The position numbers and the translations under genes are program-made. A stretch of DNA of 49,200 bases from Candidatus Zixiibacteriota bacterium (GTDB lineage: Bacteria > Zixibacteria > MSB-5A5 > GN15 > PGXB01): contig JAPLUR010000050.1 in assembly GCA_026397505.1 (NCBI GenBank), positions 1 to 49,200 of the forward strand, written 5' to 3'. Shown in pieces: positions 5,398-34,270 of the stretch. The notes beneath the pieces were generated by a model. That model ran no database searches and was not told where the DNA came from. It was given only the letters and a program-made list of their open reading frames with translations. Position 1 is the first letter of the stretch. Every line of letters begins with the position of its first letter.

Positions 5398-8127
5398 TCA
5401 ACGCCCTTTGAGAACCTTGTTAAGAAAAATATCCTCTGCAACTGCGTGCGCCGTAGACAGCAATAATACACTACCAGCAAGGCCGGATTTAACATTCGCT
5501 GGCATAAATAGTTCAGAATGCGCCTTGTCCAAGTCTACTTCATTAACAATCGCCGCTAAAGTGATGGTGAGATTGGGGGCAACAGTTAACAAATTGCGGA
5601 ACCTATTGTTAACTGCCTTACCGAAAGTGCTTATAGAAGTGGCAACCTCTACAGCACCTAAAATTGTGCTACCTTGAAAAATGATTAGATCAATTTCTTT
5701 AATAATACGAAAGGCCTCTGGTGGCAATCCGAATTCCATGCCGGTCAGGTGCGCGCTCAGTGCACTTAAATCCGGCGACTTATGCTGCTCGGTCACTCCT
5801 ATATGTACTGAAAAGCCATTTTTTAGTGCTATTTGCGCCAGTATCTTGATTATAGCATTATGGTCCAATGAGGCGGGGGATCCAAAGTCAATTGCCGTCT
5901 GCAGCGTCAAGGCGCGCTTAATTTCGTCCGGGGTCTTTACATGCGGATTCCAAACATATACTTCCCGTTTCATGCCCTTCATTTTCTTCTTGACGCAAAA
6001 GCGGGCAACAATCCGCTCTATAGTACTAATCTGCGGTCGGTGCGAATTTACAAGGTTAGAATAAATGAGAATCAATAATTCGTCCATCGATGCGCTATGC
6101 TTCTCGGACAAAAAACTATGAACAAGATTTTGCACGAAGGCTTCTGCAGGGATGAAATCGCGCATCTTTACTGATCCAGATTCCTCTACCATATCTTTTG
6201 TATACCATTTCTTCTCTTTAGACACATATATGAATGGCCCATTATCTAATAGAGTCTTCAAATCATATTTGGCAATACGATGGAGTAATGCACGTTCGTG
6301 CAAATAAGGGATTAATCCGGTCATCAATGTAGTTTCGTCTGCCCCGCCATGGTATCTAATTATCTCCTCTGCTTTTAAGCGCAAATCCCTTTCTTCGTCT
6401 GTTGAGAGCTGCTCTTTTATCGCTTCTAGCCGGGCAGGTGGCTGAACAGGTTTGAATGACAGAATGAAATCACCAAGCATTGAGCCGGCCGCCCGCTGAT
6501 GGATGGTCTGAGTATAATTTTGTACCGGCGGCTGATAGACCATTCCTCTATTTTGGCTTTCGGATTCCAGTGGTAAGCGAAAACCCGCGCGCAAGGCTGC
6601 GCGATGCAGGGACATCCAAACTCCAATGTCTCGATTATGAAAAGTCAGTACCAACCAGCCATCGGATTTGATGACGCGCCTGCACTCGATGAAAATCTTG
6701 TAAAGCATTTGTTCATAATGAGATCGGTCTTTTGCCCCATCAAATCCACTGTGTCTGGTCTCTATCGCCTCGAAGTTTTTGTCTGACAGCCCCTTCAAAC
6801 CCATAAAGTCTTTGACCCATGCAAGATAAAAATCCGAGAGCTCGCCATACTGAACATTGCCCCCAAACGGCGGATCAGTGATTATGGCGTCGACCGATCC
6901 ATCAGGCAATGGGATTTTATGACTTGATTGATTAATGATATAGCAGGTTGCACCGTCCTGCAATTCCTTCCAGGGCGTTTTTGTCGCAGGGAACCGACAG
7001 AAAGAACCTATATTTAATGCCTGCTCCTCTTTGCCAGATAGAAATGCAGCATAACGTTTCGCCAAATATGGCAGAGGATTCAATTCAATATAATGGAAGG
7101 GCAGCCAATAATTGTGCCCTGCCCATTCAACAGGTTTCCCACTCTGCCAATTGGCACTCTGAAAAACAAATTTGTTAGTATATCTAAGAGTGGAGGAATA
7201 TAAATGCCACAACGTTTCTAGCTCGGGTATATTTCCCGTATCACGAGGCAGCTTCTTTTTCAACCAGGCGCATGAAATTTGCTGTCGCACTGTCATGAGA
7301 TCCTTAAAATACTTAATCCCTTTCCCAAAGATATTGTCATCCCTGGCGCGATCCATATCCGGGAATAGGTCTCCAGGGACATGCAATTTGTGTACTTTTA
7401 AAGCTGCCTTTGCTGTTTTTCTTATTTTTTCATAGCGGCGAATATCTGTAGTATTCGCATCTCTTTTTTCTATTGTGCCACAGTGCTTACAACGAACTAC
7501 CACTGCCAACATTCGATCCGGACTTATTTTGCATTTGCTAGGTTCGACCAATGACCCACACTGTGGATTGGGACATTGAAATAGACCCTTTCCTTTCTTT
7601 CGGGCCGTGCCAAGAACGATTTCCTTACGACATCCTGGACATACTACCACGTTTGACCACTCATACCATTCTGCCACACCATCTCTATTGCATTCCAGAC
7701 ATCTGGCTTTATATAAGGATTCAATTTGTCCGGCTACCTCTGCAATCCAAGTCGTGTATAATGCGCCGAATTTGTCTATGTTAATGGGTGCGACCTCCAT
7801 CTTTGTCACCCAGGTAGCCAACGGATTCAAATCAATACCTATAACTCTGCGTCTGAGTTTAAGTCCCTCCACTACTGTCACCCCACCACCACAAAATGGA
7901 TCCAGAATTAAATCACCGGGATTGCTGTAGTGCATAATGAGTTTTGCAAAGACATTGTGTGGCCGCCTTGCATAGTATCGGTGCATTTTATAAATCGCGG
8001 TGTGGGCCTCTGCTAAAACAGGTGCCTCTATTGGCTGCACTGGCTTCGGTTTAAGCCCTTCCTTTTTGATCTCGCCTTCAATTGCTTCGTGCACCGTCCT
8101 AATACTGAAGTCAAGTTCTCTATTCAT
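5398..8127 (-). CDS. Zinc-ribbon DNA methylase with C-terminal extension (orphan)
   Basis: A 909-residue predicted N6-adenine or N4-cytosine DNA methyltransferase. Motif I is LDPFCGGGVT (residues 76-84) and the catalytic motif IV is DPPFGGN (418-424). Between them lie four cysteine pairs (143/146, 163/166, 185/190, 213/216) that should form zinc ribbons. This resembles the COG1743-type adenine-specific methylases with a Zn-ribbon. The order, motif I, long insert, then DPPF, is unusual in its spacing. Residues 570-909 are not methylase; around Asp813 to Glu827 they show a weak PD-(D/E)xK-like pattern (DLIIF, then GAVEVATS), which I would not call a nuclease. No restriction, helicase or ATPase partner adjoins. 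Codons look richer in A/T than in neighbours, and a tRNA is 230 bp upstream, consistent with acquisition. Confidence 0.8.
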   Translation of the reverse strand: MNRELDFSIRTVHEAIEGEIKKEGLKPKPVQPIEAPVLAEAHTAIYKMHRYYARRPHNVFAKLIMHYSNPGDLILDPFCGGGVTVVEGLKLRRRVIGIDLNPLATWVTKMEVAPINIDKFGALYTTWIAEVAGQIESLYKARCLECNRDGVAEWYEWSNVVVCPGCRKEIVLGTARKKGKGLFQCPNPQCGSLVEPSKCKISPDRMLAVVVRCKHCGTIEKRDANTTDIRRYEKIRKTAKAALKVHKLHVPGDLFPDMDRARDDNIFGKGIKYFKDLMTVRQQISCAWLKKKLPRDTGNIPELETLWHLYSSTLRYTNKFVFQSANWQSGKPVEWAGHNYWLPFHYIELNPLPYLAKRYAAFLSGKEEQALNIGSFCRFPATKTPWKELQDGATCYIINQSSHKIPLPDGSVDAIITDPPFGGNVQYGELSDFYLAWVKDFMGLKGLSDKNFEAIETRHSGFDGAKDRSHYEQMLYKIFIECRRVIKSDGWLVLTFHNRDIGVWMSLHRAALRAGFRLPLESESQNRGMVYQPPVQNYTQTIHQRAAGSMLGDFILSFKPVQPPARLEAIKEQLSTDEERDLRLKAEEIIRYHGGADETTLMTGLIPYLHERALLHRIAKYDLKTLLDNGPFIYVSKEKKWYTKDMVEESGSVKMRDFIPAEAFVQNLVHSFLSEKHSASMDELLILIYSNLVNSHRPQISTIERIVARFCVKKKMKGMKREVYVWNPHVKTPDEIKRALTLQTAIDFGSPASLDHNAIIKILAQIALKNGFSVHIGVTEQHKSPDLSALSAHLTGMEFGLPPEAFRIIKEIDLIIFQGSTILGAVEVATSISTFGKAVNNRFRNLLTVAPNLTITLAAIVNEVDLDKAHSELFMPANVKSGLAGSVLLLSTAHAVAEDIFLNKVLKGR

Positions 8128-8325
8128 AAATATAGTTATGGCTCATTGCTCATATTCTATGTATAGTTGTTTATCGGTACCACTCTGTCCATCACCAAGT
8201 TGGGCGTTCCTTTGCAATTATTGGAAATTTCCAGCATTAATGTCAAGGACTTAAATGGACTATTGTAAAAAAGACGATGAATTCAGCAAATTGGAGATGA
8301 CAATTCCGCCTTTCTGAAATAAATA
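8128..8325. other. AT-rich spacer between methylase and tRNA-Leu terminator
   Basis: No open frame, RNA gene, integrase remnant or attachment-site duplicate of the tRNA 3' end was seen here. It should hold the methylase promoter, but no strong pair stands out, and the methylase ATG lacks an obvious purine-rich site. Confidence 0.35.
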
Positions 8326-8352
8326 CCCCTTAAATCTCAATGACTTAAGGGG
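8326..8352 (-). terminator. Intrinsic terminator after tRNA-Leu
   Basis: CCCCTTAA (8326-8333) and TTAAGGGG (8345-8352) form a perfect 8-bp stem with an 11-base loop. On the minus strand it is followed by TATTTATTT. It begins 8 bases after the tRNA 3' end and should end the glycolysis-secG-tRNA transcript. Confidence 0.65.
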
Positions 8353-8360
8353 TCATCTTA

Positions 8361-8442
8361 TGCGGAAGGGGGGATTTGAACCCCCACGCGGTTAAGCGCC
8401 ACCCCCTCAAGATGGTGTGTCTGCCAATTCCACCACTTCCGC
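8361..8442 (-). tRNA. tRNA-Leu (anticodon GAG)
   Basis: A complete cloverleaf is visible. The acceptor stem is GCGGAAG/CTTCCGC with discriminator A. The anticodon stem CCATC/GGTGG encloses the loop TTGAGGG, giving anticodon GAG (reads CUC/CUU). There is a class II long variable arm, and the T stem is GGGGG/CCCCC around TTCAAAT. CCA is not encoded. It lies on the same strand 91 bases after secG, the same neighbour order as secG-leuU(GAG) in E. coli, so co-transcription with secG is likely. Confidence 0.95.
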
Positions 8443-8533
8443 GATATTTTTCTCAATCTCAATTGAACCGATTCAGCAATCAGCTAACAGCAACCCACTG
8501 AACCCGATCAACAATCTTCTATAAGTTAGACCT

Positions 8534-34032: not shown

Positions 34033-34081
34033 CACTTGCGCCTCGCCGGTCACGGTTGGCCCGCACTCTCCCAAATAAAAA

Positions 34082-34174
34082 CGGAAGGGGTAGGAATCGA
34101 ACCCACCGGAGACGGCATAACCGCCTCCCCACGGTTTTGAAGACCGCAAGGGCCACCAGACCCTATCCGCTTCC
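34082..34174 (-). tRNA. selC: tRNA-Sec (anticodon UCA), with an imperfect acceptor stem
   Basis: The strand reads GGAAGCGGATAGGGTCTGGT at the 5' end. The D arm is a 6-bp stem AGGGTC/GGCCCT with a 4-base TGGT loop, a hallmark of selenocysteine tRNA. The anticodon loop is CTTCAAA (UCA). The long variable arm is GGAGGCGG/CCGTCTCC, and the T loop is TTCGATT. The discriminator is G, without encoded CCA, and TTTTT follows. The acceptor 5' strand GGAAGCGG should face CCGCTTCC, but the gene has only CCCTTCC after the T stem, so the G that would pair with C6 seems lost. No selA, selB or selD is in the window. Confidence 0.85.
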
Positions 34175-34270
34175 AAACCATTATAATAAATCTCTCCCCT
34201 CAAATCAATATTACTTGTTCTCTCCCGCCGGCCAACCCTCCGCAAGCTATGGGGCATTCGGCGGCACCTG

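Follow-up and report, generated by a model that had tools for sequence, protein, structure and literature searches.

We identified a 909-residue protein in which a DNA methylase carrying a zinc-ribbon insert is joined to a C-terminal domain with a predicted restriction-endonuclease fold. It is encoded within 49,200 nucleotides of a Candidatus Zixiibacteriota genome (this whole stretch is referred to below as the window). The explanation that we favor, by a slender balance of probability, is that a single gene, acquired horizontally, fuses a methylase to a restriction endonuclease, and that its product is a self-contained restriction-modification (RM) enzyme with a rebuilt active site. The model of the C-terminal domain, its homology to domains that PADLOC classes as type II restriction enzymes, the conservation of its active-site acids and the scattered occurrence of the gene carry this reading.

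The gene and its surroundings

Coordinates of the features discussed here are collected in Table 1. The open reading frame (ORF) has the position and length given in an initial annotation of this DNA; the plus strand across 5398-8127 is full of stops. As that annotation observed, the gene lies next to a tRNA and is an orphan. It is flanked by secG and tRNA-Leu on one side and by a polysaccharide-deacetylase-like gene on the other (names assigned by eye). Nearby ORFs in the window appear by eye to be housekeeping genes, and no BrxC/PglZ/BrxHII locus was recognized among them. A search of its own genome returned no match to DUF499 (the control search was positive in one of 14 genomes), and the nuclease domain was found there only once.

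The terminator-like hairpin and the promoter-like site between the tRNA and the ORF suggest that the gene has its own transcription. The promoter-like site is weak evidence, as six such sites were found against 6.9 expected from shuffles. We considered tRNA-linked integration, but the end of the tRNA has no direct repeat near the far end of the gene and an integrase-type att site is thus unsupported. An inverted 14-nt near-repeat (93%; 5420-5433 and 8443-8456) brackets most of the fusion gene together with tRNA-Leu, and may be due to chance. Elsewhere in the window is a gene for tRNA-SeC (34081-34175, minus strand), so the genome may make selenoproteins.

Table 1. Positions in the window of the fusion gene, its predicted domains and residues, and adjacent signals.
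Feature	Position	Strand	Details
Methylase-nuclease fusion ORF	5398..8127	-	909 residues; ATG 8125-8127, stop 5398-5400; full-length relatives exist
Methylase motif X/I/II segment	7813..8001	-	Residues 43-105; DPFCGGGV = residues 76-83
Insert between motifs I and IV, presumed target-recognition region	6877..7878	-	334 residues; placed by motif positions
Two predicted four-cysteine zinc ribbons	7480..7701	-	Residues 143-216
Methylase motif IV and remaining Rossmann fold	6448..6906	-	Residues 408-560; DPPF = 418-421
First predicted winged helix	6178..6414	-	Residues 572-650; helix-helix-helix-strand-strand in model
Second predicted winged helix	5944..6159	-	Residues 657-728; cullin winged helix Z 8.4, rmsd 2.2, 68 aligned
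PD-(D/E)XK restriction-endonuclease-like domain	5401..5865	-	Residues 755-909; assigned from fold, homology and motif
E780, predicted first active-site acid	5788..5790	-	E (32) or D (4) in 36/36
D813, predicted second active-site acid	5689..5691	-	36/36
E827, predicted third active-site acid	5647..5649	-	36/36
A829, in place of second Glu of ExE	5641..5643	-	E in 24/36; A or V in 12/36 (Val 9, Ala 3)
K837, candidate relocated catalytic residue	5617..5619	-	Helix after third strand; 10/12 A/V rows, 0/24 ExE rows
Promoter-like site TTGACA-18-AATAAT	8217..8246	-	11/12 matches; upstream of fusion ORF
Terminator-like hairpin	8325..8353	-	12-pair stem just past tRNA-Leu, between tRNA and fusion ORF
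tRNA-Leu (gag)	8361..8442	-	Upstream of fusion gene; adjoins secG, conserved in relatives

Methylase half

Only two Pfam families, N6_N4_Mtase and UPF0020, match the protein over cut-off, and neither extends beyond about residue 520. The N6_N4_Mtase match is split: residues 49-102 align with the profile's C-terminal portion, and a second match, near motif IV, aligns to the profile start. This swapped order places motif I before motif IV, which is the arrangement of methylases whose recognition insert is nested. Between the two motifs, which begin at residues 76 and 418, are the cysteine pairs CLEC, CPGC, CPNPQC and CKHC; the initial annotation had described this arrangement correctly. All eight cysteines are invariant in the eight aligned sequences. 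A DPPF motif IV points to adenine-N6 as the target, which suggests that this half of the protein is a DNA adenine methylase.

In PADLOC, the methylase half scores highest against PglXI (E 2.7e-45). DUF1156, the N-terminal helical domain of DUF499-centred BREX-related systems, has no Pfam match in the protein at E 1, and the NCBIfam model DUF1156_antiphage scores 49.4 bits, where 1000 is the cut-off, with its best stretch around motif IV.

The size of the insert varies among fusions (L042, L046, L136, L138 and L122 were compared with L047-L049, L139-L142 and the group that includes the window protein). It has about 220 residues where cysteine pairs are lacking, about 290 where there are one to three and about 334 where there are four, and this stepwise growth looks as if the zinc ribbons joined one at a time. 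A second methylase-like gene directly adjoins the fusion at two loci (L049:7435-8274 and L024:9875-11152, the latter identified by eye). Plasmid methylases akin to the N-terminal half adjoin DUF2357 genes in Kurthia and Thiospirochaeta (L082 and L083), with an AAA ATPase also present in Kurthia.

C-terminal region

The AlphaFold model of the full-length protein has a mean pLDDT of 56.7; it is poor in the methylase half and good beyond residue 572. Given the unreliability of the methylase half, the full-length model was kept out of claims about the methylase, and its Foldseek list (best E 0.017) was rejected as noise. When residues 736-909 were modelled alone, pLDDT rose to 84.3 with a pTM of 0.80. 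The order of elements in this domain model (H21-34, E38-41, E79-83, E86-94, H97-114, E121-126) is the alpha-beta-beta-beta-alpha-beta core of PD-(D/E)XK enzymes.

The best structural match to the domain model is the restriction enzyme BsaWI (Z 8.2, rmsd 3.5, 136 aligned), which also matches the full-length model (Z 8.7, rmsd 3.2, 135 aligned). Restriction enzymes, CRISPR ancillary nucleases and related PD-(D/E)XK chains fill the first 22 rows of the comparison with the domain model, with 1xmx and 1y88 counted among them. Below these rows are GTPases and other alpha/beta proteins, at Z of about 7. Foldseek matches to the domain are weak, the best being Can2 at E 0.039. As the comparison tool warns that a Z near 8 may reflect a common arrangement, the fold assignment leans on fold, homology and motif taken together. 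A Pfam match to XhoI at residues 803-851 (E 0.16, or 0.045 with the C-terminus alone) fell under the cut-off and was set aside, and a search of PDB sequences with the nuclease-domain profile returned one chance hit only.

We gathered 36 homologous domains from the fetched loci, and built the profile from 16 domain sequences, mostly from the same loci. Some of these domains are part of methylase fusions, 760-936 residues long, and others belong to shorter proteins. Half of the 16 sequences match the PADLOC type II restriction model REase_II PDLC03534. The window's own domain does not, its only PADLOC match being PDLC03540 (E 0.0015). Related plasmid proteins are annotated as 'type II restriction endonuclease'.

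Thus, we conclude with good confidence, from the models and the homology, that the C-terminal 340 or so residues comprise winged helices and a restriction-endonuclease fold. The initial annotation had left this region unassigned. Pfam is indeed silent there, but two predicted winged helices and a PD-(D/E)XK fold now account for it, and the comparison with nuclease folds that was proposed at the time led to BsaWI.

Active site and its altered form

D813 lies on strand 2 and E827 on strand 3, where PD-(D/E)XK enzymes have their acids. The lysine (or Glu, Gln or Asn) expected two residues past the strand-3 acid is missing from the window protein, which has A829. Since 24 of the 36 domains have Glu at this position and 12 have Val or Ala, the ancestral motif is ExE. 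An upstream H and E/D are shared with the ExE family, where they occur alongside D...E-x-E. An Asp/Glu pattern near 813-827, with Ala in place of an active Lys, had been pointed out in the initial annotation. Those residues are present, although the residue expected at 829 is Glu, and the term 'weak' undersold a pattern whose acids are under strong selection.

The domains with Ala or Val (hereafter A/V) appear to have a single origin. In a tree computed for 29 fusions from all sequence before the nuclease domain, a single branch (100/99) sets the 11 A/V rows apart, which amounts to one change, and the next branch is an ExE protein from Stahlbacteria (L025). The tree omits L043, L044, L045, L134, L143, L144 and L145, which as fetched are not full-length methylase fusions.

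Of 173 columns, 22 do not vary across the 12 A/V sequences. The window domain has 15 acids, and E780, D813 and E827 are the only ones invariant in all 12. Six other residues (T779, K783, S791, N845, N852 and N878) are specific to the clade and present in 12 of 12. The candidate substitute K837 is replaced by His and by Asn in the two A/V rows that lack it. D865 is found in 11 of the 12 A/V rows, versus Arg in 22 of the 24 ExE rows, and a two-residue insertion near 840-841 also marks the group. K837, D865 and the insertion are not independent evidence, as all arose on or near one branch.

Natural replacements of the PD-(D/E)XK lysine listed in the available text of PMC4081073 are Glu, Gln and Asn; Ala and Val are not listed there. 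The COG4636 nucleases offer a precedent for relocation, as their catalytic Lys is described as having moved off the strand and onto the helix next to it (PMC551604, in part). For the fusion protein, relocation is read solely from the conservation of K837, and the likeness to COG4636 is one of description.

Conservation of the altered domain is not reduced. At a methylase identity of 0.5-0.6, nuclease-domain identity is 46% in the A/V clade (34 pairs) versus 37% in an ExE clade (13 pairs), with pairs that are not independent; 7 of 28 proteins were left out, and with them the whole second ExE group (five proteins). We see no sign of decay in these values. One clade member, on contig G170:C30 (L109, L134), has an in-frame TAA within the C-terminal match, which may reflect either a broken copy or an error of assembly.

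Distribution and probable acquisition

The C-terminal profile matches 10 of 132 genomes of the same phylum, and full-length relatives were found in four (the genome studied here, G028, G120 and G128). Among 39 genomes from the phylum to which one Calditrichaeota locus belongs, 12 match, seven of them strongly; for the phylum of a Stahlbacteria locus the figures are 8 of 147 and two. A scan of genome contigs gave nine loci, of which six are full-length (L021-L025 and L028), two are cut by a contig end (L026 and L027) and one is doubtful (L029). No relatives were found in viral contigs searched with the full alignment and with an EVE fusion. Phage records yielded only four weak matches, to the methylase alone. 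The best plasmid matches are likewise to the methylase half; at E 0.1 the C-terminal 342 residues matched nothing.

In relatives, tRNA-Leu(gag) comes after tpiA and secG: all 18 loci read have the tRNA, and secG was called in 17 of them. In none of the 18 does the fusion gene occupy this site, though the contigs L089, L094 and L095 end just past the tRNA. At L086, L087, L092 and L102 the same deacetylase, ATPase and kor genes resume, and other genes fill the interval. Where the fusion does occur, in the 24 relatives viewed, it is mostly a single gene amid apparent housekeeping genes, at sites as varied as gyrB, valS, murA and nuo (by eye). Some inheritance by descent is indicated by the aldolase neighbor common to L021 and L133 of the Calditrichaeota group.

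Codon use is comparatively AT-rich, as initially proposed, but less distinctively so than it first appeared. GC3 is 0.441, the lowest of 28 window ORFs of at least 250 aa (0 of 27 others lower; z -3.5). Against a sample of 20 other stretches of the genome (L151 and L152, which are N throughout, were dropped) the value is only modestly low: of 147 other ORFs, 12 are as low or lower, which places it 13th from the bottom of 148 (z -1.8). One stretch of the same assembly (L159, G000:C20:1-20000) contains many ORFs with GC3 of 0.36-0.48, and may be an island or a foreign contig.

Horizontal acquisition, which the initial annotation had suspected, is supported by the sporadic distribution, the varied sites and the relatives without the gene here, and to a lesser degree by composition. 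The examination of synteny that it had suggested showed that other genes follow secG and tRNA-Leu in relatives.

Proposed function and alternatives

In the mechanism that we envisage, the zinc-ribbon insert and the winged helices would pick the DNA site, and the methylase would mark host DNA there. The C-terminal domain, with K837 as the candidate substitute in its rebuilt site, would act on unmarked DNA as a metal-dependent nuclease, which would make the protein an RM enzyme that needs no partner gene. A fused restriction system was among the initial suggestions, and fits best by origin, given the fold and the homology to PADLOC type II restriction domains; its nuclease step is a prediction.

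Whether the protein cuts or only marks is a near-even choice, which the pattern of conserved acids tips slightly toward an active, rebuilt site. Three results point the other way: the altered residue at 829, the two of 12 A/V rows that lack K837 and the poor cutting by the corresponding BamHI mutant. A solitary epigenetic methylase is a considerable possibility, though one we place well under even: the nuclease-like domain would be past cutting and kept for DNA binding, dimerizing or metal binding that aids recognition, and the gene would do no more than mark DNA. It would fit the single loss of the second Glu of ExE, which none of the 12 clade members has regained, and the clade-specific residues listed above could mean a new binding role. 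BamHI site mutants, moreover, bind without efficient cutting; E113K, the counterpart of the change at 829, cleaves poorly and keeps binding, according to the available part of PMC8845596, so a binding-only domain is chemically plausible. Pure binding, however, would not require that the three active-site acids be the only invariant ones among 15, and the domain is conserved as well as in its ExE relatives.

These last two points also weigh against a decaying remnant of an RM fusion whose C-terminus no longer has a function, a reading raised initially as a defence remnant and now improbable. The altered residue at 829 and the in-frame TAA of the G170 clade member would be expected of such a remnant, but the frames are open both in the window and among the remaining strong matches, and the change is common to 12 sequences from two phylum-level samples. 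The preferred RM reading has one further competitor, in which the methylase belongs to a multi-gene BREX or DUF499 system whose other genes lie elsewhere in the genome. In its favor, PglXI is the top PADLOC match of the methylase half, and the insert is built like those of Type-3 BREX and BREX-related methyltransferases (PMC12839542, in part). We nevertheless consider this very improbable, as DUF499 has no match in the genome, no such genes were seen (by eye) beside the 24 relatives viewed, and BrxXI, as far as it is described in the available text, lacks a nuclease domain.

Relation to known systems

Type IIG enzymes are gamma-methylases with an N-terminal cleavage domain (PMC3874165 and PMC4081073, each in part). 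Cleavage by this class is stimulated by AdoMet and falls at a fixed distance. The fusion resembles Type IIG enzymes in having a methylase and a nuclease-like domain in one chain (at the domain level), and no separate specificity gene was seen. It differs in that the nuclease-like domain is C-terminal and that the methylase has a DPPF motif and a nested zinc insert. BrxXI (PglXI) of Type-3 BREX is described in the same partly available source (PMC12839542) as having a short N-terminus, a large nested zinc-finger insert with a 4C motif between motifs I/II and IV, or between core strands 2 and 3, and three C-terminal HTH-like domains. Two four-cysteine zinc fingers are reported, in text available in part, for a subset of Type-3 BREX-related methyltransferases. 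The fusion shares with BrxXI and the BREX-related DUF1156 methylases a short N-terminus and the nested zinc insert (eight cysteines). HTH-type domains are predicted past its methylase as well, in the form of two winged helices (572-728) where BrxXI has three HTH-like domains. Unlike these methylases, the fusion is solitary, has the added nuclease-like domain, and lacks a DUF1156 Pfam match and a DUF499 partner. BamHI has the catalytic acids E77, D94, E111 and E113 in an ExE arrangement (PMC8845596, in part); it is not an RM fusion, and the analogy is one of residues only.

We therefore file the fusion neither as Type IIG nor as a BREX component, although it may work in a Type IIG-like manner, by analogy. 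That it represents a solitary, one-protein RM family with a domain order reversed relative to Type IIG, one clade of which dropped the second Glu of ExE and gained a helix Lys, is a tentative proposal that we put somewhat below even. No published description of such a methylase-nuclease fusion was found, a weak absence because REBASE and the subscription literature lie outside the search.

If the nuclease works, this would be a compact, single-gene RM layout opposite to that of Type IIG, occurring as lone genes in poorly studied phyla. The existence of intact-site and altered-site versions of one fusion would then make a change of the PD-(D/E)XK active site testable by single-residue swaps. 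The rebuilt-site reading, if true, implies a natural switch of active-site type within an otherwise conserved fusion. If there is no cutting, the protein would plainly exemplify a restriction enzyme that has become a solitary marker, with its metal-site acids staying fixed.

The ExE type II restriction-enzyme family (PDLC03534, including EVE fusions) has the homologous domain with D...E-x-E. Its shorter proteins have no methylase fusion and keep ExE, whereas the window protein has E-x-A; the intact ExE version is present both in methylase fusions and in EVE-domain fusions. Two proteins of about 360 residues (L044:7842-8945 and L045:6837-7913, both minus strand) combine an EVE-type domain, over the Pfam cut-off in L044 only, with an ExE nuclease domain. 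From their sequences they are candidate modification-dependent restriction enzymes, a layout (EVE-PD(D/E)XK) already reported in the accessible part of PMC7641849.
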